64,000 nt of DNA. Source: Cornus controversa (Eukaryota; Streptophyta; Magnoliopsida; Cornales; Cornaceae). The notes under the pieces are model-generated. The model was not told the origin of the DNA and made no database searches. It saw only the letters and a list, made by a program, of their open reading frames with translations. The translations under genes and the position numbers were made by a program. Location: assembly GCA_026545225.1 (NCBI GenBank), contig CM048848.1, forward strand, positions 45,404,806-45,468,805, in the 5' to 3' direction. This document shows, piece after piece, positions 17,183-44,292 of this stretch. Position 1 is the stretch's first letter. Each line of letters opens with the position of its first letter.

Positions 17183-17228
<46 letters not shown>

Positions 17229-18840: not shown

Positions 18841-18847
18841 TTTTCAT

Positions 18848-19033
18848 TTAATTTTTTATTTTCTTTTTCTTTTTAAGAAAATCACTAAATAATTTTTGTA
18901 TCTCACACTCATCAAGTTCTGAATCACTGACAATTCTATCTTTAGTACTAAAAGAATTATTGGCAAATTCAAAAGGGGGATGTGACGATTTAGACTTAGA
19001 AGACATAGGTTCATCAACAAAGCAGTGAGACAA
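18848..19033 (-). pseudogene. Short retrotransposon gag-like fragment (copy A)
   Basis: The 61-residue frame contains SSKSKSSHPPFEFANN and an acidic stretch SELDECEIQKLFSDFLKK followed by Lys, like the coiled-coil/acidic part of some copia gag proteins. Charged sequence continues past the stop in other frames. About 85 bp upstream on the minus strand lies a primer-binding-like TAGTATCAGAGCAG (about 19117-19130). In copy B the equivalent is 36466-36650. Too short to assign firmly. Confidence 0.4.
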
Positions 19034-19117
19034 ATAAGTTCTAATTTGGATTTTTATTTTTTATTTTTTAAGAGCCACACCAAAAATATAAAATCTACCT
19101 ATCTATCATTTAAGGAA

Positions 19118-20450
19118 CTGCTCTGATACTAATTAAGGAAAAACAATGGGATTATTACCCAAGGCTTTGATACATCAGAATGCACAAAGCCCAAAATAGA
19201 TCTAGAGGGTTAATAGGTTTTGTTCAATGTTAACTCCAATAACTGATTTTTGAATTTTATAAAATACATTCGAAAGTAGCAATATCATTTATTTTAACCA
19301 TAGAGACCAAAATTAAAATAACAAGAATTCATACAAAATACACCAGATTTAGGTGAAATTTTCGGACAGCGAAAAACCACAGGTTCTAGTTCAATCAAAA
19401 TCCACTTAATGAGAAAAAAATTAAAATTTAGTCACCAGATTCAAAACCCTAGAATCACCTAATCTCTACCGATTCAAACTTATGCCAAACTCTCCAATCG
19501 ATTATTCAGACTGCTGATTTATCAATAGATCTGCTCTCTTCGCAACATTCTAGACGATGAAAAGCAAAATATGCACTCTATGCGCCTAGATGCTCTCTAT
19601 AACGATATCTCTAGATGTGTATGTATTCTCTTAATAATGTGTAGAGATATCTATATTTATATGTGTGTTACGAGAGCCTAGAGGTGTTTGTATAGTGCTT
19701 TGAGTCCAAAAGATTAGTGTCTCTTAGTTGTAATCAGAAAAGGAAAACTAAGGATATGTTTGGTTCAGTTTTCTCAAAACGGTATCAAAAACTAAAAAAA
19801 CATTTCCAGAGGGCTATAAAAGACTGTTCTCTGAAAACAAACCTTTTTTAAGTAAGTTTCAGAAAACTGTCAACCAAACACTTTTTTGTACTTTTTTCTG
19901 ATTTTCAGTTCTCTGGAAACAGAGAATTATTTTTAGAAAACCGAACCAAACAGACTCTTAAGCCTTTTAGAATTTTGATTTGAGAGAGTTTCCAAAACGG
20001 TTAGCAAACAGGTTGATGATCGAACTATCGATCAAACCATACTGACATTGCTTCGATCGATCGAAGCATTTTGGAATTTGATAAAACTTACCTGGAAATT
20101 TTTTATCTATCCGACATATCGATGGACGGCTTATTGATTTTGTAAAAGTTTACTGTTTAAAATATATTTGATCTAAAAATAATTTAATGCATTCAAAACA
20201 TCTTCCATGAATCAAAACATGTATGCATTATGCCCTAAAATAAGTATTCATGATCATGAACCCTAATTGATGAGTTAGTTATTCAAGAGGTGATATTACC
20301 TGTTTGCCCTTTGATGTATTTTTAATATCTGATTCTGCCCTTGGACATAGATACCACCACAAACTAACTAAACTTAATTCTGAAAACAGCACAGAAATTA
20401 CAGACTGTGACTTTTTTTACGAAATTTGCCAACACTAAGTTTTAATCCTC
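19118..20450 (-). repeat. LTR-like sequence next to a tRNA-Met primer site (copy A)
   Basis: The minus strand reads from AT-rich sequence into TTAATTAGTATCAGAGCAG, close to the copia primer-binding motif, so the sequence to the right is probably a 5' LTR. It includes GATCGATCGAAGCATTTTGG and ATTCTGCCCTTGGACAT, similar to 17881-18840. Terminal TG/CA and target duplication were not resolved. Confidence 0.35.
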
Positions 20451-23638: not shown

Positions 23639-24073
23639 AACACCCACCCATGCACAAACCCGAAAGCAAACAAACACACCCACCCATCCCCAAGGGAGTT
23701 AATTCGGAAAGAACAAAAATATATATATATAACAACTTAACTCCCTTCATATAGTTCACAAATTTATGAAAACAAAAAGACATTTTCTAAAAGAGTGAAA
23801 ACATCTACCAGATGATTGCATAACATGGTTGACCTGATTTTTTTAATTGAATTGAGTATTGATGCTTATGACTATTCCTGCAATTAAAAAACAGAAAATT
23901 CAGTTATATAACAAACATTCAAACTAACTTCCACCAAACGGAGAATGAGCCATGTGTCAAGTCAATCTGACCTTCAGCCACCAATTCTAGGTTCCATACA
24001 GCACATGGATAATAGATTTTTCATTGCAGAAGATCTTCTTCAGTCAATCAAATGTGGCTGTGTGAAGAAATCA

Positions 24074-26747
24074 TCACCAATAGTCCCTACAACTACAGGT
24101 TCCGTCCTTGAACAAATGAAAGCGATTGGCATCTCTAACCAATAATTCTCGTTGCGTAATCTTCGATATGTACTTAGTCACAGTGTGACAATCCCCACAG
24201 ACCCGAAGATTCTTCATCACCTGCAAAGGTGTGCCTGGTTTCGTGTTTAACAATCCAAATGCTATAGCAAGCCTTTCGCTGTGCCCACAAAGCATGTCTC
24301 TCTTCTCATCCTCCTCAACATCATGAAGAACATATTGCAAATCGGCAACATAACCTTCCTTAGCCATTAAACCAGCAAGTATCTCTAATAACTTATTGAC
24401 CTCTTCATGTTGTTCGAAGAAACTATCCCCAGTGCCAAACACATAAACCCTGTTTCGAATCTCCATCCAGCTACATCCAGGGTCTTTTTTCAGTCCTCTA
24501 GCTTTCAAAGATTTTCGTATTATTCTCACTTGATCCCACTTCCCTAATGCTGCATATACATTTGATACTAAAACATAATACCCAGTATCATCCGAATTTA
24601 ATTCAATGATACGTTCAGACACACGTTCTGCAATCTTCAGGTCTCCACTTGCTCGACAAGCACTAAGTAAAGCTCCCCATATACTTGCATCTGGCTTCAA
24701 TGGCATGGAAAGGACAAACTCCTCTGCTTCAGCAAAAAGCCCAGATCGTGATAGAAGATCAACCATACAAGCATAATGTTCAATCTTAGGCACAATGTTG
24801 TAGTCTTTCTTCATCCGGTTAAAGCAAGCCCGACCTTCGTCAACCAGACCTGAATGGCTACATGCAAATATGATGGCAACGAAAGCAATATGATCAGGAA
24901 TAACACCTGCTGCTTCCATCTCCTTGAAAGCTCTCAGAGCTCTCCTTCCTTCACCATACATCCCAAGTGCAAAGATCAACGCAGTCCATGTCACTACATC
25001 TTTTGTTTTCATTTGCTCAAATACTAGGAGCGAGTTCTTCAAACTACCACATTTGGAATACATATCAATCAGTGCATTCCCAATTGGAACATGTGACTGA
25101 AACCCTAACTTGAAATTGCAGCCATGGATCTCCTTCCCTTGACGTTTGGCAGCAAGTAAGGAACACATGGGCAAGGTAACTAACATGGTAGCCACATCTG
25201 GCACCATCCCCTCTGTTCTCATTCTATTGATCATCCTGAATCCTAAATTACTGTCCTCAGAATGAAGACATGCAGCAATAATGGTATTCCATGTCACAAT
25301 ATCACGAGTATTCATGCTCTCAAATATTTTTAGTGCATCCTCCATTTTGCCACATTTAGCATACATATCCACAAGAGCATTTCCCACAACTAAACTTGAA
25401 TCAAGTCCTATTTTTGTTATCTCACAATGGAGCTCCTTCGCATGATTAATGTTTATTAATTGGGTAGACATAGATAGGAGCATCACATAGGCGACGGAAT
25501 CGGGTTTAAAAACTGTTTTCATCATCTTAAAAAGCTTCTTTGCTTCCTCATAACGTCCATTTTGAATATAACCATTAATTAAAGAGTTCCATGACACCAA
25601 ATCTCTGCATTTCATTCTGTCAAAAACTTCCCATGAAGCCAACAAATCACCACACTTTGCATACATACTAATAAGAATATTACTTGCTGTGGTATCACAT
25701 TCATGCCCGCTTCTCATCATGTACTCGTGAACATATTTTCCCAGTTCTAAATCTCCAATGTGACCACAAGCATAGAGAACAGATGTAATTGTTAATAGGT
25801 CTGGTTCAAATTTATCAAGCATATCTAGAAACAACTTGATTGACTCTTGATACAAGCCCGCTTGAGAATACCCACAAATTACAGAGTTCCAAGTGACTGT
25901 CTCTAACTGCCATCTCGTAAAAAATTATCCCACAATCTGCTAATCTATCTAATTTGAAGTACATATAAAGAAGCAGATTACTGATGATGATATCAATCTT
26001 AACACCAATCTTTTCAACCAAGCCATGAACTATCTGACCCTCTTCAACGGCAAACAGACCTCCACTTGCAGGTAAAACACTGGACAAAGTGAAAGAATCT
26101 GGAACCACGCCAGCAGATCTTGAACAATGATAAGTTTCCAAAGCTTCCTCCCAATACCCATTTGAACTGTACCCCGAAATCAGACTATTCCAAGAAACAA
26201 CATCTCTATAAGTCATTTCCTCAAACACACTACGTGCTCTATCCAAATCATTGAATCTTGCGTACATATCGATCAATGCATTGCCAATATACAAATCCGA
26301 GCCAAAACCCATTTCCATCACATGATCATGAACAAGCCTACCCAAATCAACATCCAAAAAGCCCGCGCATGCATTGATAATTGAAGGGAAGGTGTATGTA
26401 TCAGGTCGAAGCCTTAATTTCCGCATTTGATAATAAAAATCCAAAGCCTCGGAGAACAAACCATTATGGGTCAGTGCTCTTATGATTGAGTTCCATTGAA
26501 AAACATTGTTAGTAGGTGAAACTCGGCGAAAAACTGATAAAGAAGCAAGTGGGTCTCTAAATTTGGCGTACTTGCTTATGAGTTTGCCAGAGAAGAAGAC
26601 AGATTGTTCGAGTCCCAATGTGATTATCAGTGAATGAACTTTGTGGAGTTCTCTGGAGTTCGTTGCAGAAGATAAAGCTTTTGAGATTGAAATATATAGT
26701 AGCTCTTGGCTTCGTTGGCCTAGACTTCGAAACTTTGCATCTTTCAT
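24074..26747 (-). pseudogene. DYW-type PPR gene, frameshifted (copy A)
   Basis: This is the duplicate of the intact gene at 41617-44292. It is open from the ATG at 26747 to a stop at 25815 (310 codons, the last ~25 out of frame). It then resumes in another frame from about 25900 to the DYW stop at 24074. The cause is a 2-bp loss at about 25900: copy A reads GTGACTGTCTCTAAC where copy B reads GTGACTGTGTCTCTAAC. All later PPR, E and DYW blocks are still open (593 codons from an internal Met) and nearly identical to copy B. Without correction the product would stop before half of the repeats and lack the editing domain. A sequencing error or recoding cannot be excluded from sequence alone. Confidence 0.85.
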
Positions 26748-27490
26748 GAGACGAGACTGAAGTTTGGCTCAGATTCCTTGCAATTCAGATTCATACAGTT
26801 TACCGTTGGAACCTTGTTTGGTTACGGAGTTCTCTCAACCGTTTTAAAGGAACAAGGTAGTGAAAAGATTTGAAATTATTCCAGCAATTTAGAATTAACC
26901 AAACAAAAATACAGAACAAGATTTCAAGAGAAAAAATTTAAAAGAAAAGTGAAAACAGATATTGTGAAGCAAGGACATTGAAAATTCCTTAAATTTGAGG
27001 CATTATTTACCACTTCAGCGCCAAAACTGTAGTAAAAGAAAGGTGATTTTTTTTTTTTTTTCAAGAGCGATGTTGGTGTCAAAGCTCTAAAAGAGCATTC
27101 ATATTTAACCACTAACAGATAATTACCGTACCAAATTATTAATAATATTGGGGCATTATTTATATATTTTATTTATCAAATCAAAGTTTTGATGAGCTTT
27201 TCTTTTTTCATACTTAAATTTTTATGAGTTTTGCTTGCTATTTATCAAATCGACATTTTGATGAGCTTTTCTTTTTCATAATTAATTTTTTATGAGTTTT
27301 GCTTGCCAATATTTTAATAAACTTATACATAAAAAAGTTATGATACATTAGCCAACAATCGACTACTCACATAAAAGTGAAACTGTGACATTTTCGATGT
27401 CACCGATTACTCTTACTCATATGAAACTGTGACTTCTTCGATGTCAACTGAAAAAAAATTCTCACAAAATCTCTTCGGCTACTTGTCCAA
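26748..27490. other. Upstream region of PPR copy A, with local tandem duplications
   Basis: A ~69-bp block (TTTATCAAATC...GAGTTTTGCTTGC) is present twice in tandem at about 27166-27305. A GAAACTGTGAC...TTCGATGTCA block is doubled at about 27378-27450. Copy B has each once (about 44735-44805 and 44860-44890). No clear TATA box was identified for the minus-strand gene. Confidence 0.6.
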
Positions 27491-27492
27491 AC

Positions 27493-28125
27493 TTAATAAA
27501 TAGGTCTAAATAGCATTACTCGTAATAAGAGGGAAAGATAAAAACAGTACCCCATGCCCAAATCACTTTTTGTGCAATCTGTGGGCTTAAAGGATACAGT
27601 CTTGTTTTTTAGGTCATAATCTACTAAGAAGTTCATCTGTGCCAGGTTACCAAAGACAGCAATCTCATGAGTTGGTGCAAAAAGCAAGGCATGGGACATT
27701 CATTGCAGTTCTTGTGAATGTGTTCTCAAGATTCAACTTCACATCTGCACTAGCAAAATGCAATATTGATACTCCTATCTTTGTCCAAGTAACACAATCT
27801 GGGACCTTTTTGGGGTCATTGACAGGTTTTAAACCTATTGCAAGTCTCATTGCCCATTGTAATGGAAAGGATAGATTTGTTGGTAGACATGTCAATGTTG
27901 CTCCTGTGTCAACCACTATGTTACCCTTCTATTGTCACAAAGTACAAAGTTTTCTTTTTCAAGATTCGTGTAGTAGTAACCACCCCAGCACCTAACACCA
28001 TGCCTTTGCTACCAAAGTTCATTTTGCTAGACTTTGTGGATGTCTTAGGGTTCACCAAGAAATATAAAAATATGCCACCAATCAACGAATTCATCTGCAA
28101 AATGAAGTAAACTCACCGACAAATT
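27493..28125 (-). pseudogene. Aspartic protease (A1, nepenthesin/CDR1-like) 3' fragment (copy A)
   Basis: Minus-strand translation gives, across at least two frame changes: QMNSLIGGIF then MNFGSKGMVLGAGVVTT (the block before the second catalytic site); VDTGATLTCLP (second catalytic Asp motif); and the C-terminal FGNLAQMNFLVDYDLKN followed by VSFKPTDC. The first catalytic DTGS and the propeptide are absent, and the gene is cut at the duplication edge at 28294. An AG acceptor-like TTTTGCAG precedes the QMNS block. Copy A also lacks 13 bp near 27765 that copy B has. Non-functional. Confidence 0.75.
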
Positions 28126-28304
28126 AAATGTTGACACGTACATAGTTGTAGGATTCATTAAAGTAAATACATTTTTACTTATGTGACAAAATATAATTGA
28201 TTGATGACACCATGACATGGTATCACGGATGCAAAAAAAATCTCTCTCACAAACTGACGAGACCAAATCTAGCTAACCTCGTTGAATTCAACAATTTTTT
28301 TTTT

Positions 28305-29275
28305 AAAATCTAGCTTTAAACTTAAATTAATGATTTCACCTCTTGATTATATGCATAAAATGATCAATAAATATTATTATTTATATATAATAATATATTA
28401 TGTTATTATTTTTTGACGTATCTAGGCCATATTTGTGTTCTCGGTATGTGTTCTACCCGATCAGTGCTTCCTACTTTATAGCCATTGAATCACGGATAAA
28501 GGAAAGAGTTACATCTGGTTTTTCTTTTAGCAGGAGTCATGGGATAAAAGGTAAATCAAAGAAAGTTAAAAGTGCTAAGCTGTGAAGCCCAATTATTTTA
28601 GTAAGAGTAATATACTACTATCCTTTATCAACATTTACAATCTATTGCCAAAACCTTGGGCTTGGGAAAATACACTGGGCCATTGGATTAAGTTAGGGGT
28701 GTAAAGGGCTTATGTTTGGTTAGAATGGACTGGGCAGCAGGCTGGTTTCTCCTTCTGGGCTTCAGGAGGTTGGACTGAAAAAATAAACAACACAATTCTT
28801 TTTTGAGTAATGATAGAGAGTCTGAATCAGACTAGATCAAAAAAAGTTTTATACGAGTGAAGTGATGGGTTCCACACATGATATTATGGTGATGACATGT
28901 GCTGAGACCAACCATTCCACTCACATAAAAATAAAATCGAACTAATCTGATCGATCTTTAAATCATTATTATTATTTTTTTTTTATGAATTTGACCAAAA
29001 ATAAGCACAACACCTTTTTTTCGCAATACTCGTAACGTTTGTTTTGAAACTTCGTCACTTTAAATGGTAACTTTTACTACTATAATGGTGAAATTTTACT
29101 AATTTAAACTCACGAATAAAAATGGTCTAATTCAAATATAAAACGTGTTTTTGATTACTATTTAAAACACTGTATAAAAATTGTATTCGACAGAAACAAA
29201 AACGCAAAATACCAACAAATGCCAAATAGGTCCTGTGTATTCCAGTATTAGCCATCGGGAATCAACATGAACAAA
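28305..29275. other. AT-rich spacer at the start of copy B
   Basis: Counterpart of 8148-9118. No gene; the 61-codon frame at 28400-28585 has no recognisable domain. Confidence 0.5.
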
Positions 29276-30240
29276 TCTACTATTATTAAAAGTACAAAGG
29301 AATTTTTTAATTTCAGTACACTATTTTTTTATTTTGAATTAAAAAAAATAAAATTACCCAAGCAAAACCCTTTCTTTTCATTTCTAATTTTTAAATTTAA
29401 AAAAGTAGAACCCTTTCCTTTCTATTTTTAAATTAAAAAAATAAAATTACCCAAGCAAAACCCTTTCCCAAGGAAAACCCTTTCTTTTTATTTCTAAATT
29501 TTTAAAAATAGAATTATAACCCGCAAAACCCTAAACACCTAAAATCACTCTTCCCTTTCCTTATTTATTTATAAATTAAAATCTATCTATACTACTATTA
29601 AAAGTACAAAGTGGTTTTTTAGTTTCAGTACACTATTTTTTTATTTTTAAATTAAAAATATAGTATTACCCAAGAAAAACCATTTCCTTTTTTATTTTGA
29701 AATTAAAAAAATAGAATTACCCAAGCAAAACTCTTTCCCAAGCAAAACCATTTTTTTTTTCTTCTAATTTCTATCTATTCTATACTACTATTAAAAATAT
29801 AAAGGGGTTTTTTAGTTTCAGTACACTATTTTTTTATTTTTAAATTAAAAATATAGAATTATCCAAGCAAAACCCTTTCCTTTTTTATTTTGAAATAAAA
29901 AAATAGAATTACCCAAGCAAAACCCTTTTGTTTTTATTTCTAATTTCTAAATTTAAAAAAGCAAAACCCTTTCCTTTTTTATTTTTAAATTAAAAAAATA
30001 GAATTACCCAAGCAAAACCCTTTCTTTTTATTTCTAAATTTTAAAAAATAGAATTATAACCCACAAAACTCTAAGCACCTAAAATCATTTTTATTTATAA
30101 ATTAAAAAAAAAAAAGAATTACCCAAGCAAAACCCTAAACACCTAAAATCACTATTCCTCTTGGATACGGCTATCCAAAAATAGAATTACGTACCCATAC
30201 AAAACCATTTACCAAGCAAACTCCTTTATTTTTATTTCTA
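29276..30240. repeat. AT-rich tandem array with Helitron-like 5' ends (copy B)
   Basis: Counterpart of 9119-10080, with Helitron-like starts (TCTATACTACTATTAAAA or variants) at 29276, 29586 and 29779 and repeated ATTACCCAAGCAAAACCC. Confidence 0.55.
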
Positions 30241-30254
30241 AATTTATCAAGCTT

Positions 30255-30890
30255 TCCATCGATGCACGTTTTGCGGAGTCCCTTATCCTACAGCACGGAT
30301 ACTCCAAAAAGAGCCCCGTGGCCATATCGGACACCTATCCGATACGGATACGGCTAGGATACAGCAAGTTACGTGTACGATATGGCTAAGAAGTATCCAA
30401 TTTTTTAAAATTATTTTTTGAATATCGAATACGGTTAGGATACAGGGGAGATACGTGAGGATACGTCAGGATACGTTTAGGATACATTTGGGATACGGCT
30501 GTGATACTTTTCGGGACAAGTTTGTAATTTTTTGTTATATAAAATGGGGTTGAGATTGTAATATTAAAATTTTATAGATTAAAAAATAAGGATCACTTTA
30601 TAATAAAACAAAAATATTTTTAAAACCCTCAAGGAAGTGAGTCATTGTAAAGAATATTAGAAAAGATAGTGAATTTTTAGATTTTAACTTCTTATGTTTT
30701 GTATAATTACTTTAACTATATTTATTGAATGGTTGAAGAATAAAAATTAATATTTTATGTATAATATTATATTTTTTTTTATTTAATTATTTGACGTATC
30801 CTTGTCGTGTCCGTATTCTATTTTTTTAAAATTTTTCGTATCGCCGCATCCGTATCGTGTCGTACCCATATTTCGTGTCCGTATCCTTGC
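30255..30890. repeat. GGATACG-rich dispersed repeat (copy B)
   Basis: Counterpart of 10090-10725. It has an extra GGATACATTTGGGATACGG stretch near 30480, so the motif cluster has changed copy number since the duplication. Confidence 0.65.
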
Positions 30891-30908
30891 TTCCTTGCCC
30901 TTATCTTT

Positions 30909-30951
<43 letters not shown>

Positions 30952-31109
30952 CTTCCTTGCCCTTATCTTTAACATGAGAATAATATCCTGCTTCCTTGCC
31001 CTTGTCTTTAACATGAGAAATATATATATTTTGCTTCCTTGTCCTTATTATCTTTAACATATATATTTTGCTTCCTTGCCCTTATCTTTAACCTGAGAAT
31101 ATATATATA
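30885..31109. repeat. Minisatellite GCTTCCTTGCCCTTATCTTTAA with AT tracts (copy B)
   Basis: About five units with an (AT)n tract at about 30911-30949. Copy-number pattern and unit order match copy A. Confidence 0.85.
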
Positions 31110-31289
31110 TCTATATTACATTTAAGCTTGGCCTAATAAGGCCAAAAACGGTGATCCAACGGCCCAGAGTTGTTAAAAAAGTAATCCTGCGGTTCAAAAT
31201 GTCTTTTGCTATCTACGGTCTAAAATCACTTCATCTAACGGTCACGATTGCGAGTGCGCGATAGTGCCGTAGGCACGGGCATACCCTAG
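31110..31289 (+). mobile_element. Small non-autonomous Helitron-like insertion (copy B only)
   Basis: A 180-bp segment inside the (AT)n tract is absent from copy A at 10930-10963. It begins TCTATATTAC, ends CTAG followed by T, and sits between A and T as Helitrons do. The hairpin GTGCC-GTA-GGCAC (31264-31276) ends 9 nt before CTAG (31286-31289). No coding capacity. Helitrons usually insert without target duplication, as seen here. Confidence 0.8.
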
Positions 31290-31628
31290 TATATATATAT
31301 AGCCACTTGGTTTGAACTAGTCAATGATCGATCAAAGTCAACAATACTTTCCTTTTCAACCAAGAAGTGGAGGCTGGTCTCATCAACCACTGGCCTAATT
31401 TCAATTAAATTTTGCTACTGTTCACATCACATGGTCCACCACGCATACTAATTTTGTTGGACCATATATTATATCATCACAAGTTTAAATGAGAATCCTG
31501 CAGTCTTATAGAAAGAAAGATAAGAAAGAAAGAAAAAAAAAAAGAGCATTAACTACCTAATATCAAATATCAAATTCAAGTTAGACAAATCTAGATCAAA
31601 GGGGTTACATAGATATACAGAATGTGGG

Positions 31629-31634
31629 TATAAA
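31629..31634 (+). promoter_or_regulatory. TATA box of GST gene 3
   Basis: GGGTATAAAGG, 35 bp before the ATG at 31670, at the same spacing as in GST gene 1. Confidence 0.45.
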
Positions 31635-31669
31635 GGAGCTGGGTATCACAGTTTGTCCATCAAACCAAA

Positions 31670-32600
31670 ATGGCAGAACTGAAGCTTTTCAGGACATGGT
31701 CAAGTCCGTTTGCCCTGAGGATTGTTTGGGCACTGAAACTTAAGGGCATAGAATATGAAGCCATATTTGAAGATCTTACCAACAAGAGCCCTTTACTTCT
31801 CCAGCTCAATCCTATTCACAAAAAGGTTCCGGTGCTTGTGCATGATGGAAAAACGATTACAGAATCGCTTGTAATTCTTGAATACATCGAGGAGACATGG
31901 CAACAGACTCCCATATTGCCCCAAGATCCTTATGAGAAAGCCATGGCGCGTTTCTGGGCTAAATTCTGTGATGACAAGGTAAATAACCACTGTCTCGTAT
32001 ATGTTTTGATGTCTGGCCCTGAATCAAAAACATCAGTAAATATTTTAATGTCTATATACTTGCATCAAACCATTTTGATTTAAATAACTTTCCAACTTAA
32101 ACTGCTTTCAAATTTCAAAAAGTGACAGAGAGTTTTATTTTAAGCAGTGTCCAACATTTCTAGCTGGCTTACAAAGTTGTTTATTCTGAAAGGCATCATC
32201 TAACCAAACATTTACTATTTCTTCTTCCCTCAAGCTTGCGCCATCAATGCTGCATGTTTTGAAAACTCAAGGGAAAGAGCAAGAGGAAGCTACGCTTGCA
32301 GTAATGGAGAACCTGAAAATCATAGAAGAAGAGCTAAGAGGAAAAAAATTCTTCGGTGGAGAGACTATTGGACTTGTAGACCTTGCATTGGGTTGGATGG
32401 CTAATTTGGTCAGTGTATTTGAAGAGGTAATAGGTCTTAAGTTGCTAGATTCAGAAAAGTTCCCATTGATATTCGCCTGGATGCAAAACTTCTCAGATAT
32501 TCCAGTTATCAAAGAAAACTGGCCACCTCGAGACAAGCTAGTTACCAAGTTCCAACATAGGCGTGAGTATTACCTCGCAGCAGCACCACCACCAAAATGA
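31670..32600 (+). CDS. Tau-class glutathione S-transferase, gene 3, chimeric (copy B)
   Basis: Two exons, 31670-31978 and 32235-32600, phase-0 intron, 224 aa. Motifs: WSSPF (presumed catalytic Ser12), [38 protein letters not shown]; tail AAAPPPK. The 5' flank and exon 1 up to the C of CCATGG (gene-1 specific T at 31944) match gene 1, with about 3 residue differences in exon 1. From 31968 on, exon 1 end, intron, exon 2 and 3' flank match gene 2. A VTKFQ patch near the C-terminus is shared with gene 1, more likely the ancestral state than a second exchange. The gene keeps the intact Ser-Pro-Phe motif and TATAAAGG. AATAAA lies at 32744. The frame is intact and probably functional. Confidence 0.92.
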
Positions 32601-34060
32601 ACCGGTTCACAAAGCCCTGCACGAACCTTCAAAGTTCCTACAATCACATGAATGATAATCATATGAGGTACACCCAATCATAAAGTGATGTTTGTCTAGT
32701 TGTGCCTTCTGTTTGTTTTTTTCTTTCCCAGTAAGTTTTTAATAATAAATGGGTTGTGTTTAACTTGTTTAATAAACGGGTTGGTTGTGACTTTTGTTTT
32801 ATCAGTGAATAAATTGCATGACTCGTATAATTATCAAATCTTATTCAACTACTTAAAGTAAGCAACATATATTGCAATGATAAAATCTTATCCAACTACC
32901 TAAAGTTAGCAACATAAATTGCATCTATTGAATCTAGCATTAAAATTCTTCACCTTAACATTGTGATCTTACATTTTCTAATGAAATTACAAATATTGAT
33001 TCCATGTCTAAAATAGTTTATTTGTTTGCACCTGAAATAATATAGTTATGAGAAGATAAATATTGTGGTGCTGATGAGACAAGTTTAAGCGTCAATATAA
33101 TCATTTCTAGATCCACACTGCCTCTGTGAACATATATGACCTGTTTTGAGAAAAAACCACGACTGATACAATAATATGTACAAGTAGGATGATATCAACA
33201 ATACCAAATCCATGTGCTCAAAGTCCTTCAGCTAAAGCATAAAATAGATAAATCAAATAAAGAGATCATGCAAATATTATTGCTGAAACCTGCTATTATC
33301 AATTTATCTGCAAGATTAGTAAATTTTCAGTGCCTTCAAAACGAAAAATAAATGCAATACTGAAATGACAACAAATCATTAAAACATAGGATATGAATAC
33401 ATCAAGGACATGTCATGTATGCATGTCCGTATATATGGTATTAATGTATATATATAAATGAAGATATATATTTATAAATTTAAAATAATACATGTTGTAT
33501 ACATTATTACTAATATTCGCTTATAAAAGAATTATGAAAATAAGCAGAGAGTTATTCTGTGTGGACACAAACTTCAGACTAAAATAGACATAATATATTC
33601 TCAGTATATTACAATTCTTCTTCTTTTTTCAAGAAATTTTAATATTTGTAACCCTTGTTATAGTTTTCCTAAAAATTACATAATGACATTATATTTAGAA
33701 ATTTTGAAAATTTATACTTTAATGTTTAAGACCTGTTAGAAATGTGTGTCGAAGAATCAAATAAATACTGGATACGTGAAGTATATGATAAGTGCTAGAT
33801 ACGTGTTCGAAATCAAAGATAGAAAAAAACATTTCCAAAATTTTGGATATATTTGGAAAATATTAAACACATATTTGCAAGTATCTGACTGTCAATATCC
33901 GATACAGATACATCCCCTCCTCACAAAATTATCTAAGCTTCTTAGTTGACAATAAGACAGTGGTAGGCAGGTAGAACTTTTCCTGAAAAAGGAAGATAAC
34001 ATAACAAAAAAAATTCCCAACTACTTGGGTTCAACTATATGAATTGTGTTTTCTTAGGAT
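32601..34060. other. Spacer downstream of GST gene 3 (copy B)
   Basis: Collinear with 15120-16490. It retains a segment at about 33870-33930 (containing CCGATACAGATACATCCCC) missing from copy A. No gene seen. Confidence 0.6.
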
Positions 34061-34300
34061 GTATATTCATATTGGTCTTGACAAAAGTTCTACACTGGCA
34101 GTCAAACTACATAACAGAGCCCTCCTCTTTTTTCCAAGTCTGGGACCGGCTGTGTAATAACAAAGCACCGAACATGACACAGGTGGAGTTAAAAGAAAGA
34201 TAACTAGAACATTAATTTGCAGGAGATGAGAAAGAAGAACCTTAAACAAACCTTCCATAGTACAATATTCATGAATAAGTGGTGTATTGTGCACATTCAC
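34061..34300. repeat. Conserved repeat with GAGCCCTCCTCTTTTTTCC core (copy B)
   Basis: Counterpart of 16497-16740. Confidence 0.4.
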
Positions 34301-37300
34301 TTAATTTATGTGCCACAGTAATTCATGATCCAAATAAATTTGTTATAACCAACATTTATCGATTTGTTGGTTATATGAGCTATTGATATCAAAGAGTCAA
34401 TATTAGAAGTTACCATCATGGCAACTGAGGTTTCTTCTAGGATGATCTTTTATTATAAACACACACAGAGAACAAGTTTACAACTATTAGAGATATGTAT
34501 CTGTGTTGGCATATTCCGTAAAGAAAGCCTAGTTAGGTTGTCAAGGATGAGGTCCTTATTCATGGTTCATCTTTGATCCTTGAAGAAATGCTACTTAGGT
34601 TGTTAAGGATGAGGCGCTAATTCATAGTTCATCACCGAAGAGTTGATTGAAGATTAAAGACTAAGCCAAGTTCGCATCAGCATGATCCTTCACATGCATT
34701 AATCACACACTTTAGGAATGATAAGTGAATTATAAACTATTGGACTCGCCCCACTGGAATTTTTTTTCTCATATATATATATATATATATATGTTGTGTG
34801 TGAGTGTGCGTGTGTGTGTGTCTATATATGTATGTATATATATTAACTTTACAATTGTGAACTTGCCCCTTCTAAAAGTGTTATAAAATGTTTAGCCTAT
34901 AAGCTTTTCCAACCCTTTCTTCTGTCAAATTTTCTCTTTTCTTTCGCAAATTCTCTGTCCTTCATTCTCATTACCCACACCAATTACATCTCTATTTTGG
35001 CCATCAGTTTGTCTTTTTTATTCTATCAGTCTCTCTCCAAAGCAAAGCACCAAGTGGAAGAATTACAAATGACTCTAAGCCCGTATGAAAAACTCTAATC
35101 CCCTTTTCTTAGTCAATATTGTTCTTTCTGCAAAGTAGGATTTTTAATTTTGAAAAAAGAAAATAGAAAGAATAAAAAATGAGATGAATTTTGTTAACAT
35201 CAATAGATTATTTAAGAAAAAACATTCAACAGCATTGATTATGAGGTTGTCACGCAACACTAAATATTTAAATTTTATCAATTATAAATGTATTAATTAT
35301 AAACGTATTATTATAAATCAATATTTAAATTTTATTATCTATTGGTTTGGTTTGAAAAAAAATTTGTCATATTGTTGTTCATGGTTGCCCCCACTAAAGT
35401 AAAATCCTGGCTCGCTCATCTTGATTAATTGCTAGCTTAAATGGCCTAAAATTCCATAACCAACCATTAAAGTTTGGATGGCATGTTTAAATATGAATAG
35501 TTATAATCAAACCAAGACCAAACTCTCCACTCAAACCTCTACACCTCCATTAACAAATCTGCTCCTTACAGTATCTGCTTCTCCACAAGTACTTTGATCT
35601 CCAAACTAGTCGTCCAATCCGAGTGATTCCTTAAGTAGTGTTGAATGCGTTGTAGGCTCGATAGCAGTAGAAATCAACAACTGTAGCACATACTCGGCAA
35701 GCTAGATGGAGTGATTAATTGCTAGAATGCACTCACAATGCTCTAAGTGTGCTAGAGTGAATATAATAAAGCAAGCATAGGTTTTTTTGAACACTAAAGG
35801 TCCTTATATAGAGAGCATAGAATCCTGAAAACTATAGGGTTTTAAGAGATTGAATTTGAAAAGGAAACTTTGTTTCGTGTCACTCAATCGATTGAGCCAA
35901 GTGTCAATTGATCAACACCAAGCCAATGGCTTTTGTTTGATCCCCCGATTGATCGATGTGCCCTATCCTTCTATGACTAGGATTTAAATTTTAAAAAAAG
36001 TTTTCAAACACTCTTTTAAGCAATGTCAAACCAGATTTTTCTAAACCGCATGAGGAAAACATGAAACCCTATTTGATGAATGCATGAAACCCTAATTAGC
36101 TGGTGCATCTATGAATGTTTAATTAACCTTTTCACCCTCGAGTGTGGAGTTTATCTTTTTACCCTTCACTTGCAGCTTTAAGTTCCAATTCTGCCCCTGG
36201 ACAAGAGGTAACCAAGTAACTCTAACTAACATTCAAAAAACTTTTTAACAAATAAAATATAATTACAGACTCAAGCTTTTGACACGAAATTCCTAACCTA
36301 ACTCCTATTGACCTAACAAAGTTTGAAACTATTTTATTCAAGTTCAATACCTTTATGTATTTCTTGAAGACATCTGGTTCATGCTCCATTCTTCTAAGTT
36401 TTTCAACTTCTAGGTTAGGGTCATCTCGCTCCTTTTCTACTATTTTCAGTTTTTCATTTAATTTTTTATTTTCTTTTTCTTTTTAAGAAAATCACTAAAT
36501 AATTTTGTATCTCACACTCATCAAGTTCTAAATCACTGTCAATTTTGTCTTTAGTACTAAAAGAATTATTGGCAAATTCAAAAGGGGGATGTGACGATTT
36601 AGACTTAGAAGACATAGGTTCATCAACAAAGCAGTGCGATAAATAAGTTCTAATTTGGATTTTTATTTTATTTTTTTTAAGAGCCACACCAAAAATATAA
36701 AATTTTACCTATCAATCATTTAAGGAACTGCTCTGATACTAATTAAGGAAAAACAATGGGATTATTACCCAAGGCTTTGATACATCAGAATGCACAAAGC
36801 CCAAAATAGATCTAGAGGGGTGAATAGGTTTTGTTCAATGTTAACTACAATAACTGATTTTTGAATTTTATAAAATACATTTGAAAGTAGCAATATCATT
36901 TATTTTAACCATAGAGACAAAAATTAAAATCACAAGGATTCATACAAAATACACCAGATTTAGGTGAAAATTTCTGACGGGGAAAAACCACAGGTTCTAG
37001 TTCAATCAAAATCCACTTAATGAGAAAAAAATTAAAATTTAGTCACCAGATTCAAAACCCTAGAATCACCTAATCTCTACCGATTCAGACTTATGCCAAA
37101 CTCTCCACTAGATTATTCAGACTGCTGATTTATCAATAGATCTGCTCTCTTCGCAACATTCTAGACGATGAAAAGCAAAATATGCACTCTATGCGCCTAG
37201 ATGCTCTCTATAACGATATCTCTAGATGTGTATGTATTCTCTTAATAATGTGTAGAGATATCTATATTTATATGTGTCTTACGAGAGCCTAGAGGTGTTT

Positions 37301-40016
37301 GTATAGTGCTTTGAGTCCAAAATATTAGTGTCTCTCAGTTGTAATCAGAAAAGGAAAACTAAGGATATGTTTGGTTCAGTTTTCTCAAAACGGTATCAAA
37401 AACTAAAAAAACGTTTCCAGAGAGCTATAAAAGACTGTTCTCTGAAAACAAACCTTTTTTAAGTAAGTTTCAGAAAACTGTCAACCCAACACTTTTTTGT
37501 ACTTTTTCCTGATTTTCAGTTCTCTGGAAACAGAGAATTGTTTTTAGAAAACAGAACCAAACAGACTCTTAAACCTTTTAGAATTTTGATTTGAGAGAGT
37601 TTCCAAAACGGTTAGCACACAGGTTGATGATCGAACTATCGATCAAACCATACTCACATTGCTTCAATCGATCAAAGCATTTTGGACTTTGATAAAACTT
37701 ACCTGGAAATTTTTTATCTATCCAACATATCGATGGACGGCCGCTTATTGATTTTGTAAAAGTTTACTGTTTAAAATATATTTGATCTAAAAATAATTTA
37801 ATGCATTCAAAACATCTTTCCATGAATCAAAACATGCATGCATTATGCCCTAAAATAAGTATTCATGATCATGAACCCTAATTGATGATTTAGTTATTCA
37901 AGAGGTGATATTACCTGTTTGCCCTTTGATGTATTTTCAAAATCTGATTCTGCCCTTGGACATAGATACCACCACAAACTAACTAAACTTAATTCTGAAA
38001 ACAACACAGAAATTACAGACTCAGACTTTTTTTACGAAATTTGCCAACACTAAGTTTTAATCCTCACAAGGATTGATTACGAATGTTTATTAATCGAAAA
38101 AAGGATTGATTAGGAAGGTCAGAATTTGGAAACATGACAACTCGTTAATTCTGAATGTAGTTAGATGGGCATAGCCAATAAGTCAAGTTAAAGGTTCGAT
38201 CAACCAAGTTTTGTCTAGCAGATGTTGGATCAATTAAGCTAAAGCTTGGAAAAGTCAAAGTTGGTCCAGCAGCTGTTTGACCAATCAAAGTCACTGTTGA
38301 GTGATCGAGATCACTCCAGTAGGCGCTTTACTGGTCAAACTATCTAAAAGTAAAAATAGGAACTCAAGGTTTATCCAAACAAAACACAATGCATGAGAGA
38401 CTGTGAGAATACTCTAAATTGAGAGAACAAAGAATAATCAAAACAAACTTAAAGAGATATATATTTTAAGTGAGTGATCTACTCTCCATGGAATCTCATG
38501 CATAAAAGATAGGCCAACCACGTCACCTACTATTTAGATTGCTGGAGAACAATGTGTAAATGATGCTGTGAAGTCAGTTTTTTTGTAGAGTATGCAGAGT
38601 GCAAGAAGCAGCAGCTGGACTCTAAAGTGAGTGAATAACTAGTAGAAGAAATCTATGCATACATGCAATTAGTCAGTGGCTAGGCTTGTGTCTCAACTAG
38701 GGCATAACAATGAGCATTGGCAGTCTTTGTGCTCTTAATAAGCTTTGCATATTGGAATGATCAGTTGTGTCAAGACCAAGTCCTGTTGTTTTTTCTCTTT
38801 AGGGTACTCCATGTGAAAATTGAATATGCCTTGTTATGTTATTGCTCGAGTTTGATTATGTACTAATAAATTGATTATGTGGTTGCATAATTAATAAGAA
38901 GGATCCAATCACTACACTTGAACTGTCTGTGATTCTGCAAAGCTTCAGAGCCTGACGATAACCTTTCAATATCTCCTTCAATAAAGAATGAAATTACTTG
39001 AGTCAGAAATTTATATATTTTCCCTAGATTTAAGCCAGCAATTTAGATGGAGAGTGTGTTTCAGAAATTATAAAGGGAAAAAAAATACTATGATTTGGAT
39101 TTTGGACATTTTTATAGAATAGAAGCATGGTTTCTCTCTGCTGTAATTTTTTTTTTTTTAAATCCTCTCTATTAATCTCGCATTGTCAATTTCTTTGCAC
39201 CAATTCTGTCATACCCCAAGGTGTTTCAAAAGATTAAAAAAAACATATAGAGTCACCAACTTGTAGTATAAGAAGTAATCACATTTTGCCAGGATGAGTT
39301 TTTGGACGTGTGGGGTTTTACTAATTCCAAGTTTTTTAAGCCCTCTTGTCTTTTTCTTTCTTTTTTTTTTTGTCCTTTGGCAAGACAGTTTATCAAGCTG
39401 ACTCATTATTCCCTAAATGAAATATTGAAATATCAATTGCTTCAGGAATGAGGAGCATATAGTTTCTTTTCAAAAGTTTCAATGGCTGTTCGAAGAAACA
39501 TTATGTGGCAAAAAAATATATCTTCAATTTCCCCAAAAAAATAATAATCAATAAAAACATTTGCAAAGCAAACTTAATGATGCCATTAATCAATTTTAGA
39601 AAGGAGAAGTATCTCGATTTGACAGTAGTAATAAACAGCAATAAAGCATTCAAAGTATACCTTCTGGAAATATGCAGAATCCAATTGAAATAGCCACCTT
39701 GATCTGCAGAGAAAATACATTAGTAAGTTGTTTCAAATTTTAAAAGTTATACCTTAATTCTCATATCAGCTTAAATAGCATTGAATCAGGTTTCCCGTTT
39801 ACCCACAACAGAGCCGTCCCCACCAGGCAGGCGGCCACGGGTCATAACACACTCTTCGCATAACAAATCCTGACTTATTTGCTCGGCCAAGCTCTTCCCT
39901 ATTCAAATAAAATAAGTGGTTAGGAACAAAAAATAGCCAAGCAAGCAAGTCATGCCCCTATCTATCACTCCAGTTTGAGAATCTTGCAGTCTATCCATTC
40001 TAGTGGTTCAGGACTC
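34301..40016. other. Long spacer of copy B with decayed LTR-element sequence
   Basis: Collinear with 16741-22544 and without recognised genes. It holds the LTR-like stretches (about 35480-36470 and 36720-38060) and the gag-like fragment (36466-36650, minus). It has an extra ~45 bp with a short inverted repeat (ACCAACA...TGTTGGT) near 34350 and about 32 extra bp near 38575, and lacks about 173 bp at 39006. Confidence 0.55.
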
Positions 40017-41050
40017 TTGACAATCATCTACTCTAAAAGCTTAAGTTCTTAGAGAGTGTGTAACTTTAATATTTAAATCCTTCAACATGCCCCCTCACGT
40101 GCTGCCTTCTTTTTGGTCCAACACGTGTTTCAATTTTAATTATCAGGATGACGGTGAGGTTTGAACACAGGTGCTTGCCTGCTCTGATACTATGTTAACC
40201 ACCATCTACTCTAAAAGCTTAAGTTATTAGAGAGGATGTAAATTTAATATTTAAATCCTTCAACGCGCCCCTCACTTGTAGCATTCTTTTGGTCCAACAC
40301 ATGTTTTAATTTTATTTATCAAGGTGACGGTGAGATTTGAACTCGAGACCATTGGCCCTAATACCATGTTAACAACCATCTACTCCAAAAGCTTATGCAG
40401 CTAGAGAGGGTGTAACTTAAATATATAAATCCTTCAATATACCCCATCACGTGTGGCCTTCTTTTTGGTCCAACACGTGTTTCAATTATCAAGGAGACAA
40501 CGAGGTTTGAACTCGAGACATTTGACTCTGATAACATGTTGACAACCATCTACTTTAAAAGCTTAAGCTATTAGAGAGGGTGTAATTTTGATATTTCAAT
40601 CCTTCAACACGCCGCCTCACGTGTGGCCTTCTTTTGATCCAACACATATTTCAATTTTAATTATCAAGGTGACGGTGAGGTTTGAACACGGGTGCTTGCC
40701 TGTTCTGATACCATGTTAACCACCATCTACACTAAAAGATTAAGCTATTAGAGAGGATGTAAATTTAAAATTTAAATCCTTCAACACGAACCCTCACATG
40801 TGGCCTTTTTTTTAATATTAAATTTACATCCTCTCTATTAGCTTAAGCTTTTATAGTAGATGGTAGTTAACATGGTATCAGAGAAGGTAAGGTTGTGTGT
40901 TCAAACCTCACCGTCACCCTAATAATTAAAATTGAAACATGTGTTGAACCAAAAGAAGGCCACACGTAAGGGGGTGTGTTAAAAGATTTATATATTTAAG
41001 TTTACACCCTCTAGCAACTTAAGCTTTTAGAGTAGATGGTTGTTAACAAG
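40017..41050. mobile_element. Tandem TRIM retroelement array (copy B)
   Basis: Counterpart of 22545-23496. It has repeated ~73-bp LTRs in minus orientation (starting near 40018, 40194, 40368, 40540 and 40715), then plus-orientation copies ending near 40870 and 41047. Primer sites (CTCTGATACCAT / TGGTATCAGAG) lie between LTRs. Unit composition differs slightly from copy A, so the array has changed since the duplication. Confidence 0.82.
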
Positions 41051-41616
41051 GACTGCCCCTTCTCGATAGTCAAAAGGCCTATTCAATCTATCTGATGTGG
41101 GAGGAGTCCATCTCTTTAATTGATTGATTCCCTTAGAAAGAACCTAGAATGATCCCTACACACACACACACACACCCATGCACAAACACGAAAACAAACA
41201 AACCCACCCACCCATCCCCAAGGGAGTTAATTCGGAAAGAACAAAAAAAAAAAAAATATATATATATATATATAACAACTTAACTCCCTTCATATAGTTC
41301 ACAAATTTATGAAAACAAAAAGACATTTTATAAAAGAGTAAAAATATCTACCAGATGATTGCATAACATGGTTGACCTGATTTTTTAAATTAAATTGGGT
41401 ATTGATGCTTATGACTATTCCTGCAATTAAAAGACAGAAAATTCAGTTATATAACAAATATTCAAACTAACTTCCACCAAATGGAGAATGAGTCATGTGT
41501 CAAGTCAATCTGACCTTCAGCCACCAATTCTAGGTTCCATACAGCACATGGATAATAGATTTTTCATTGCAGAAGATCTTCTTCAGTCAATCAAATGTGG
41601 CTGTGTGAAGAAATCA

Positions 41617-44292
41617 TCACCAGTAGTCCCTACAACTACAGGTTCCGTCCTTGAACAAATGAAAGCGATTGGCATCTCTAACCAATAACTCTCGTTGCGT
41701 AATCTTCGATATGTACTTAGTCACAGTGTGACAATCCCCACAGACGCGAAGATTCTTCATCACCTGCAAAGGTGTGCCTGGTTTCGTGTTTAACAATCCA
41801 AATGCTATAGCAAGCCTTTCGCTGTGCCCACAAAGCATGTCTCTCTTCTCATCCTCCTCAACATCATGAAGAACATATTGCAAATCGGCAACATAACCTT
41901 CCTTAGCCATTAAACCAGCAAGTATCTCTAATAACTTATTGACCTCTTCATGTTGTTCAAAGAAACTATCCCCAGTGCCAAACACATAAACCCTGTTTCG
42001 AATCTCCATCCAGCTACATCCAGGGTCTTTTTTCAGTCCTCTAGCTTTCAAAGATTTTCGTATTATTCTCACTTGATCCCACTTCCCTAATGCTGCATAT
42101 ACATTTGATACTAAAACATAATACCCAGTATCATCCGAATTTAATTCAATGATACGTTCAGACACACGTTCTGCAATCTTCAGGTCTCCACTTGCTCGAC
42201 AAGCACTAAGTAAAGCTCCCCATATACTTGCATCTGGCTTCAATGGCATGGAAAGGACAAACTCCTCTGCTTCAGCAAAAAGCCCAGATCGTGATAGAAG
42301 ATCAACCATACAAGCATAATGTTCAATCTTAGGCACAATGTTGTAGTCTTTCTTCATCCGGTTAAAGCAAGCCCGACCTTCGTCAACCAGACCTGAATGG
42401 CTACATGCAAATATGATGGCAACAAAAGCAATATGATCAGGAATAACACCTGCTGCTTCCATCTCCTTGAAAGCTCTCAGAGCTCTCCTTCCTTCACCAT
42501 ACATCCCAAGTGCAAAGATCAATGCAGTCCATGTCACTACATCTTTTGTTTTCATTTGCTCAAATACTAGGAGCGAGTTCTTCAAACTACCACATTTGGA
42601 ATACATATCAATCAGTGCATTCCCAATTGGAACATGTGACTGAAACCCTAACTTGAAATTGCAGCCATGGATCTCCTTCCCTTGACGTTTGGCAGCAAGT
42701 AAGGAACACATGGGCAAGGTAACTAACATGGTAGCCACATCTGGCACCATCCCCTCTGTTCTCATTCTATTGATCATCCTGAATCCTAAATTACTGTCCT
42801 CAGAATGAAGACATGCAGCAATAATGGTATTCCATGTCACAATATCACGAGTATTCATGCTCTCAAATATTTTTAGTGCATCCTCCATTTTGCCACATTT
42901 AGCATACATATCCACAAGAGCATTTCCCACAACTAAACTTGAATCAAGTCCTATTTTTGTTATCTCACAATGGAGCTCCTTCGCATGATTAATGTTTATT
43001 AATTGGGTAGACATAGATAGGAGCATCACATAGGCGACGGAATCGGGTTTAAAAACTGTTTTCATCATCTTAAAAAGCTTCTTTGCTTCCTCATAACGTC
43101 CATTTTGAATATAACCATTAATTAAAGAGTTCCATGACACCAAATCCCTGCATTTCATTCTGTCAAAAACTTCCCATGAAGCCAACAAATCACCACACTT
43201 TGCATACATACTAATAAGAATATTACTTGCTGTAGTATCACATTCATGCCCGCTTCTCATCATGTACTCGTGAACATATTTTCCCAATTCTAAATCTCCA
43301 ATGTGACCACAAGCATAGAGAACAGATGTAATTGTTAATAGGTCTGGTTCAAATTTATGAAGCATATCTAGAAACAACTTGATTGACTCTTGATACAAGC
43401 CCGCTTGAGAATACCCACAAATTACAGTGTTCCAAGTGACTGTGTCTCTAACTGCCATCTCATAAAAAATTATCCCACAATCTGCTAATCTAGCTAATTT
43501 GAAGTACATAGAAAGAAGCAGGTTACTGATGATAATATCAATCTTAACACCAATCTTTTCAACCAAGCCATGAACTATCTGACCCTCTTCAACGGCAAAC
43601 AGACCTCCACATGCAGGTAAAACACTGGACAAAGTGAAAGAATCTGGAACCACGCCAGCAGATCTTGAACAATGATAAGTTTCCAAAGCTTCCTCCCAAT
43701 ACCCATTTGAACTGTACCCCGAAATCAGACTATTCCAAGAAACAACATCTCTATAAGTCATTTCCTCAAACACACTACGTGCTCTATCCAAATCATTGAA
43801 TCTTGCGTACATATCGATCAAAGCATTGCCAATATACAAATCCGAGCCAAAACCCATTTCCATCGCATGATCATGAACAAGCCTACCCAAATCAACATCC
43901 AAAAAGCCCGCGCATGCATTGATAACTGAAGGGAAGGTGTATGTATCAGGTCGAACCCTTAATTTCCGCATTTGTGAATAAAAATCCAAAGACTCAGAGA
44001 ACAAACCATTATGGGTCAGTGCTCTTATGATTGAATTCCATTGAAAAACATTGTTAGTAGGTGAAACTCGGCGAAAAACTGATAAAGAAGCAAGTGGGTC
44101 TCTAAATTTGGCGTACTTGCTTATGAGTTTGCCAGAGAAGAAGACAGATTGATCGAGTCCCAATGTGATTATCAGTGAATGAACTTTGTGGAGCTCTCTG
44201 GAGTTCGTTGCAGAAGATAAAGCTTTTGAGATTGAAATATAAAGTAGCTCTTGGCTTCGTTGGCCTAGACTTCGAAACTTTGCATCTTTCAT
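41617..44292 (-). CDS. DYW-type pentatricopeptide repeat protein, intact (copy B)
   Basis: An intronless 891-residue protein, probably an organellar RNA-editing factor. Residues ~30-690 are PLS-type PPR repeats with many GNALIDMYAKCG and VVSWNSLISGY-type motifs. The E/E+ region follows (about 690-795). The DYW cytidine-deaminase-like domain has HSE at 823-825, CGDC at 851-854, and ends CSCRDYW. Sequence and length closely resemble Arabidopsis At3g03580 from memory; the target editing site cannot be inferred. The ATG at 44292 is the first Met of the frame and matches the copy-A start. The N-terminus has few acidic residues but no clear transit peptide by eye. It is the only unbroken copy in the window. 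Confidence 0.93.
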   Translation of the reverse strand: MKDAKFRSLGQRSQELLYISISKALSSATNSRELHKVHSLIITLGLDQSVFFSGKLISKYAKFRDPLASLSVFRRVSPTNNVFQWNSIIRALTHNGLFSESLDFYSQMRKLRVRPDTYTFPSVINACAGFLDVDLGRLVHDHAMEMGFGSDLYIGNALIDMYARFNDLDRARSVFEEMTYRDVVSWNSLISGYSSNGYWEEALETYHCSRSAGVVPDSFTLSSVLPACGGLFAVEEGQIVHGLVEKIGVKIDIIISNLLLSMYFKLARLADCGIIFYEMAVRDTVTWNTVICGYSQAGLYQESIKLFLDMLHKFEPDLLTITSVLYACGHIGDLELGKYVHEYMMRSGHECDTTASNILISMYAKCGDLLASWEVFDRMKCRDLVSWNSLINGYIQNGRYEEAKKLFKMMKTVFKPDSVAYVMLLSMSTQLININHAKELHCEITKIGLDSSLVVGNALVDMYAKCGKMEDALKIFESMNTRDIVTWNTIIAACLHSEDSNLGFRMINRMRTEGMVPDVATMLVTLPMCSLLAAKRQGKEIHGCNFKLGFQSHVPIGNALIDMYSKCGSLKNSLLVFEQMKTKDVVTWTALIFALGMYGEGRRALRAFKEMEAAGVIPDHIAFVAIIFACSHSGLVDEGRACFNRMKKDYNIVPKIEHYACMVDLLSRSGLFAEAEEFVLSMPLKPDASIWGALLSACRASGDLKIAERVSERIIELNSDDTGYYVLVSNVYAALGKWDQVRIIRKSLKARGLKKDPGCSWMEIRNRVYVFGTGDSFFEQHEEVNKLLEILAGLMAKEGYVADLQYVLHDVEEDEKRDMLCGHSERLAIAFGLLNTKPGTPLQVMKNLRVCGDCHTVTKYISKITQRELLVRDANRFHLFKDGTCSCRDYW

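Follow-up and report, generated by a model that had tools for sequence, protein, structure and literature searches.

Gene 3, a tau-class GST gene in the window (the whole analysed stretch of 64,000 nucleotides), is a chimera of two paralogues: shared-derived bases confirmed that it groups with gene 1 at its front and with gene 2 at its rear. We consider it likely that this in-frame chimera arose by non-allelic homologous recombination, which would have deleted 2.9 kb in one copy of a segmental duplication. The original prediction had proposed the chimera, and the three-way alignment, the site tests and the shared-derived bases all bear it out.

The window occupies positions 45,404,806–45,468,805 of contig C4 (CM048848.1, 76.6 Mb), part of an assembly totalling 772 Mb in 61 contigs. 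Its GC content is 35%, and its gene content identifies it as plant DNA. Self-BLAST revealed a tandem segmental duplication, with copy A at approximately 8125–28303 and copy B at approximately 28282–45764. The self-BLAST HSPs (A/B) and copy B are as follows:

8125–10948 / 28282–31116: HSP
10952–11621 / 31290–32005: HSP
14158–21363 / 31621–39013: HSP, collinear, 93% identity
21528–27237 / 39005–44798: HSP
27239–28303 / 44732–45764: HSP
28282–45764, no strand: copy B, with one tau-class GST gene (gene 3) against two in copy A (genes 1 and 2)

The K80 divergence between the copies was 0.037 (7175 sites), 0.032 (5668 sites) and 0.053 (2805 sites) for the three longest aligned pieces, and 0.076 (1006 sites) and 0.043 (670 sites) for the two short ones. 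At the duplication junction (28282–28303), the HSPs at the end of copy A and the start of copy B overlap by 22 bases, a T-run last, which is possibly a short homology at the join. Both copies carry a DYW-type PPR gene on the minus strand (24074–26747 in A and 41617–44292 in B). It is open in copy B (891 aa), and its frame is shifted in copy A by a 2-bp gap at approximately 25901. The stretch 24000–25599 differs from its copy B counterpart by six substitutions in 1600 bp (0.4%), compared with 3–5% for the three longest pieces of the duplication; this may reflect a recent gene conversion between the two loci or a PPR gene under strong constraint. Further along the window, an ORF of 736 aa with a fasciclin domain and internal repeats of approximately 207 bp lies at 48739–50946 on the plus strand. 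An Rfam search of 8000–46000 gave no hit, and a bacterial promoter scan found nothing.

The GST genes and the parts of gene 3, which encodes 224 aa, are as follows:

11286–12145, plus strand: gene 1 (copy A), exons 11286–11594 and 11765–12145, 229 aa, 5' parent type, Pfam GST_N/GST_C
14209–15119, plus strand: gene 2 (copy A), exons 14209–14517 and 14757–15119, 223 aa, 3' parent type, Pfam GST_N/GST_C
31110–31289, plus strand: Helitron-like insertion of 180 bp in the gene 3 promoter, absent from gene 1
31290–31669, plus strand: promoter and 5' UTR of gene 3, gene-1-derived, with TATAAA at 31629 (−41)
31670–31978, plus strand: gene 3 exon 1, codons 1–103, gene-1-derived at least to 31859
31979–32234, plus strand: gene 3 intron (GT...AG), gene-2-derived, aligning with the gene 2 intron
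32235–32600, plus strand: gene 3 exon 2, codons 104–224 and stop, gene-2-derived

All three genes have open frames and GT-AG introns, and all exceeded the Pfam cut-offs for GST_N and GST_C (4.2e-23 and 3.1e-11, respectively, in gene 3). The closest relatives of gene 3 are tau-class; its best PDB match was 4j2f (2e-76), the RcGSTU1 of PMC9412104 (in extract). In the β1–α1 loop, genes 1 and 3 both read Ser12-Pro13-Phe14, the serine being followed by Pro-Phe as in the aligned relatives, and gene 2 reads Ser12-Arg13-Phe14.

We assessed the ancestry of gene 3 in a three-way alignment of the genes over the block 31646–32625, counting sites as gene-1-type where genes 1 and 3 agree and as gene-2-type where genes 2 and 3 agree. 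The best single split fell at 31944|31968, with 12 gene-1-type sites to one gene-2-type site on the left and 10 to 82 on the right; its maximum chi-square was 45.6, and none of 20,000 permutations was as good. The exceptions to the split are thus one gene-2-type site on the left (31909) and 10 gene-1-type sites on the right. The split was also recovered when only coding sites were counted (12:1 versus 7:31; one of 20,000 permutations as good) and in the 5' UTR and exon 1 only (362 of 20,000; P = 0.018). Ancestry switches once, between adjacent paralogues of the same orientation. In exon 2, gene 3 differs from gene 2 at 15 of 341 positions and from gene 1 at 36 of 341; the gene 1 intron is mostly unalignable with that of gene 3, and homology with the gene 2 flank continues for more than 7 kb 3' of gene 3. 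The original prediction had called for a formal recombination test and had named uniform similarity to one paralogue as the opposing outcome; the single-split permutation test supports the switch, and the similarity is not uniform.

A second gene-1-like patch in gene 3, at 32544–32553, was considered and rejected. It comprises five consecutive gene-1-type sites (run test P = 0.0011, on a 39-site pattern string with one gene-2-type site above the 38 of the split test), and a formal second split in gene 3 was not significant (P = 0.052 and 0.096). The patch is not a conversion into gene 3, since two further loci of the genome, L004 and L005, carry the base of genes 1 and 3 at all five sites, so that it was gene 2 that changed. 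Gene 2 itself shows five private substitutions within ten exon 2 bases here (15066–15075).

The direction of change at individual sites was estimated with these outgroups. A whole-genome search with exon 1 returned at least 23 matches; among those listed, only the three window genes exceeded 90% identity (100, 97 and 94%). The next was L004 (contig C8, 87%), which has both exons, and L005 (contig C9, 83%) has a disrupted frame. At the 12 sites in exon 1 where genes 1 and 3 agree, L004 carries the gene 1/gene 3 base at six, the gene 2 base at four and another base at two. The first six are therefore private changes of gene 2, with genes 1 and 3 keeping the ancestral base, and the next four (31708, 31805, 31855 and 31859) are shared-derived between genes 1 and 3. 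Ten sites shared-derived between genes 2 and 3 lie at 31972–32560, with no overlap between the two ranges. Altogether, 16 sites were parsimony-informative with L004. To the left of 31908, four grouped genes 1 and 3, none grouped genes 2 and 3, and one grouped genes 1 and 2; to the right, the corresponding numbers were none, 10 and one (Fisher P = 0.001, the cut having been placed with the pattern already in view). The two sites grouping genes 1 and 2 (31837 and 32264) indicate that homoplasy exists.

Phylogenetic trees agreed with this polarity. With L004 and L005 included, the tree of exon 1 as far as 31908 grouped gene 3 with gene 1 (SH-aLRT 92.2/UFBoot 95), and support fell to 78.4/78 when exon 1 was extended to 31966 with L004 as the sole outgroup. 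Exon 2 grouped gene 3 with gene 2 (94.9/98).

Could gene 3 instead be the plain counterpart of gene 2 behind a gene-1 promoter, its exon 1 looking gene-1-like because gene 2 changed fast? In favor of this, the six private gene 2 changes among the 12 exon 1 sites all alter an amino acid, and private sites are more numerous in gene 2 than in gene 3 (12:3, P = 0.035). The exon 1 evidence is in fact ambiguous when read without the outgroup, as a fast-changing gene 2 would also yield amino-acid-changing codons at which genes 1 and 3 agree: eight of the nine such codons among codons 1–92 are amino-acid changes. Third positions then separate the two parents by a log-likelihood difference of just 0.36, compared with 6.1 for first and second positions, and the third-position distances over 31679–31978 are 6/100 for each of the three pairs. 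Against it stand the four sites shared-derived between genes 1 and 3, with none between genes 2 and 3 left of 31908. Moreover, the distal promoter block is far closer to gene 1 (93%) than to gene 2 (71%), so that a junction would remain under this explanation too, further upstream. We therefore regard a gene 3 without a coding chimera as highly improbable, noting that the assignment of exon 1 to gene 1 rests on the four polarised sites and the promoter.

The position of the crossover is less sharp than originally predicted. The bases at 31944 and 31968 had been taken as diagnostic, and the best split does fall there; by L004, however, 31944 is a private change in gene 2, and 31968 and 31969 are private changes in gene 1. 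Being private, they are uninformative about the parent and had been overweighted. The run shared by the genes, given as 23 bp (31945–31967), measures 22 bp (31945–31966), as position 31967 differs in all three genes. The proposed 23-bp crossover window lies inside the interval set by the polarised sites but is over-precise:

31860–31971, plus strand: crossover interval from polarised sites, 112 bp, codons 64–101, containing 31945–31967

The interval is delimited by the last site shared-derived between genes 1 and 3 (31859) and the first shared-derived between genes 2 and 3 (31972). The latter bound depends on L004, as the more distant L008 carries the gene 2/gene 3 base at 31972; a firm bound is set further out by the closely spaced gene-2-type intron sites that begin at 31996. 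In a clock profile of all sites, the tested crossovers from after 31859 to after 31969 came within 2.0 lnL of the best one, apart from that after 31909 (2.69). With third-position and non-coding sites only, the profile barely constrained the crossover in exon 1, reaching 2.07 at each end.

The promoter of gene 3 follows gene 1, as predicted, with additions that gene 1 lacks. The block 31308–31475 is identical to gene 1 at 126 of 135 positions and to gene 2 at 99 of 139; on realignment, the distal promoter of gene 2 proved to be a diverged homologue of those of genes 1 and 3 and not an unrelated sequence. Genes 1 and 3 share TATAAA at −41, and gene 2 has TATAGA at −43. The additions are approximately 32 bp missing from gene 1 and the 180-bp insertion at 31110–31289, which within the window is private to the gene 3 promoter. 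Helitrons begin with TC, end with CTRR after a hairpin and insert between A and T without target duplication. The insertion reads TC...GTGCC-GTA-GGCAC...CTAG, with its target A|T in a TA repeat, and thus has what appears to be the anatomy of a short non-autonomous Helitron. A genome search with it, in which 40 of 2057 candidates were scored, returned at least 43 matches. Of the 43 listed, 30, that of gene 3 included, covered all 180 bases at 94–100% identity. All eight loci read, again including that of gene 3, were flanked by A and T, and each was adjoined by a TA repeat on one side or both.

The block that copy B lacks relative to copy A measures 2923 bp, exactly the distance from the ATG of gene 1 to that of gene 2 (14209 − 11286); gene 3 is offset by 20384 from gene 1 and by 17461 from gene 2. 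The loss thus amounts to exactly one repeat period, the join is in register, and exon 1 of gene 3 contains no gap or filler. The offsets and the matches to copy B place the block as follows:

11476–14510, plus strand: copy-A stretch holding the 2923-bp block missing from copy B

Within it, the counterparts of the crossover interval are 11476–11587 in gene 1 and 14399–14510 in gene 2. When the block 12168–14157 was compared with copy B at E 1e-3, only two matches were found, namely 55 bp at 32581–32635 and the diverged promoter at 31299–31453. Two repeats were seen between genes 1 and 2: a dispersed repeat of approximately 330 bp (12474–12807), in the block missing from copy B, with several tens of scored matches genome-wide, and tandem repeats of approximately 65–75 bp upstream of gene 2 (13490–13770), with no further match within the window.

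These features can be ordered into a likely course of events. An older tandem duplication would have produced genes 1 and 2, and a later segmental duplication of approximately 20 kb would have copied both. Copy B would then have lost 2923 bp when the closely similar first exons of genes 1B and 2B underwent homologous recombination, either through an unequal crossover (involving sister chromatids or homologues) or through single-strand annealing following a break. The lost DNA would comprise the rear of gene 1B, the spacer between the genes, and the front of gene 2B with its promoter. As a candidate substrate for such recombination, exon 1 and its 5' edge contain stretches of 65, 51, 49 and 47 bp that are identical in genes 1 and 2; together with the in-register join free of filler, these fit a homologous exchange between genes 1B and 2B. 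An in-register exchange within exon 1 preserves the reading frame and the splice sites, and it should preserve the two-domain fold as well. An exchange between the paralogues that cost copy B about 2.9 kb, as the original prediction had it, remains the best explanation. The mosaic ancestry, the in-register difference of 2923 bp and the intact frame and splice signals are observed, whereas the direction of the event and the recombination mechanism are inferred.

The maize p2/p1 and p1/p2 Myb chimeras (PMC2686159, in extract) are plant tandem paralogues likewise fused within their cluster, and p2/p1 offers a described precedent for non-homologous or microhomology-mediated end joining. The maize p2/p1 join, as presented in the extract, differs in carrying filler DNA and in having end points at non-corresponding positions of intron 2, whereas that of gene 3 lies in exon 1, in register and gapless; end joining is accordingly a most improbable origin for gene 3.

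An event in the opposite direction would leave the same pattern. If a single gene resembling gene 3 were the older state and copy A had gained the 2.9-kb block, for example through a circular GST-gene fragment integrating at exon 1 in a single crossover, or through exchange with a haplotype that carried both genes, this would be the topologically exact reverse of the deletion, and the mosaic pattern is symmetric between the two. With three sequences and a single close outgroup, a deletion in B and an insertion in A look alike, and L004 informs on the relationships of the genes and not on the earlier state of the locus. A gain in copy A would, however, require a donor with a diverged gene, and among the 40 of 713 candidates scored genome-wide, the whole intergenic block matched only itself; the other long matches fell in the dispersed repeat (approximately 245–585 of the query). 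Since deletions between tandem repeats are also commoner, we judge the reverse direction to be unlikely.

The divergence of the copies also bears on this direction. The dS between genes 1 and 3 was 0.052 over codons 1–92 and that between genes 2 and 3 was 0.072 in exon 2, and the background K80 of the three longest HSPs is 0.032–0.053; each half of gene 3 thus appears to have diverged from its copy A partner about as much as the two copies have in general. Over all 103 codons of exon 1, the dS between genes 1 and 3 rises to 0.098 (0.097 between genes 1 and 2), because the end of exon 1 is gene-2-type. Genes 1 and 2 have a dS of 0.20 in exon 2 and therefore look older than the duplication; this argues against copy A having recently re-duplicated a single gene. 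Gene conversion between exon 1 of genes 1 and 2 was suspected from their lower divergence there (18/309 in exon 1 versus 35/342 in exon 2; Fisher P = 0.045, or 0.15 for synonymous sites only) and then dropped as unneeded: third-position distances to L004 likewise fall from 33–36% in exon 2 to 17–20% in exon 1, so exon 1 seems to evolve more slowly.

The single gene in copy B might also be an artifact, with two genes truly present and gene 1B joined to gene 2B by the assembler. Genes 1 and 2 do share identical runs of up to 65 bp. However, gene 3 has a private base, where genes 1 and 2 agree, at 14 of the 119 sites classified in the block, with examples on either half, and it has its private promoter insertion, so that it was not patched from copy A. 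The window contains no Ns, and the few chromosome-sized contigs suggest long reads, which would span 2.9 kb. An assembly collapse is thus very unlikely, and a true deletion in copy B remains our preferred reading.

As to the protein, gene 3 most likely encodes a working tau GST, which, judging from the mosaic, should combine a promoter and glutathione-binding domain of gene 1 type with a substrate domain of gene 2 type. Within exon 2, up to codon 217, the products of genes 3 and 1 differ at 17 codons; 12 of these (108, 109, 123, 124, 150, 151, 165, 174, 192, 201, 212 and 214) have the gene 2 residue in gene 3, four of the other five differ in all three genes at codon level, and one is gene 3's own. 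Near the C-terminus, at codons 207–210, gene 3 has gene 1 residues because gene 2 changed there. For poplar, extracts of PMC9412104 give Ser12 as the assumed catalytic residue of PtGSTU19, which is the same in gene 3, and describe the GSTU20 substrate site as lined by the β1–α1 loop and helices α1, α4, α6 and α9. The PDB entries 7zs3 and 7zzn are presumably poplar GSTU19 and GSTU20, judged from Tyr160 and Cys160. A difference from the poplar enzymes lies in helix α6, where the tryptophan of PtGSTU20 (Trp161), called conserved in GSTUs in extracts of PMC6540824 and PMC9412104, is replaced by Leu161 in genes 1–3 and L004 (32406–32408 in gene 3). Tau-class membership stands nonetheless, as this tryptophan was not taken as a class criterion.

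The predicted pairing of a gene-1 Ser-Pro-Phe site with a gene-2 substrate domain is present, but Ser-Pro-Phe is no hallmark of gene 1: L004 and five aligned PDB relatives have it too, and Arg13 of gene 2 is, on this comparison, the derived state. Because Arg13 may be later than the fusion, the chimera did not necessarily acquire a better glutathione site. Codon 90 was briefly taken, by comparison with the PDB proteins, as derived in genes 1 and 3 and was dropped, as L004 also has Lys. That the Ser-Pro-Phe site, the Helitron-altered gene-1 promoter and the gene 2 pocket together make a new enzyme, with a substrate range or expression unlike that of either parent, is conceivable by analogy with CYP337B3 (below) but unlikely.

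Fusions of this general kind are known. The best case found among in-frame detoxification-gene chimeras by unequal crossing-over is CYP337B3, a chimeric P450 of Helicoverpa armigera attributed to that process (PMC6211633, in extract). Like gene 3, it joins two paralogous detoxification genes in frame, with the 5' coding part from one parent and the intron and the rest from the other. It differs in enzyme family and kingdom and in having a fenvalerate activity that, according to the extract, was undetected in its parents, whereas gene 3 is known from its sequence. Chimeric tandem genes in plants and the repeated tandem expansion of tau GSTs are likewise known; in clusters such as that of poplar, extracts of PMC6540824 and PMC9412104 describe the expansion of serine GSTs through successive tandem duplications. 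Among the titles listed by a literature search, none reported a plant GST chimera from unequal crossing-over, though one may still have been published, and a search on chimeric tau GSTs returned only a sand-fly paper.

As an evolutionary event, the fusion is ordinary for tandem gene families, whose clusters shuffle and shrink in this way, and it illustrates that a tandem array can lose a gene and yet keep an open product. Gene 3 is at the same time a clean natural domain swap, with both parent types approximately 17–20 kb away as built-in controls, and the trio would let one ask which half determines specificity, the one with the glutathione site or the one for the substrate.
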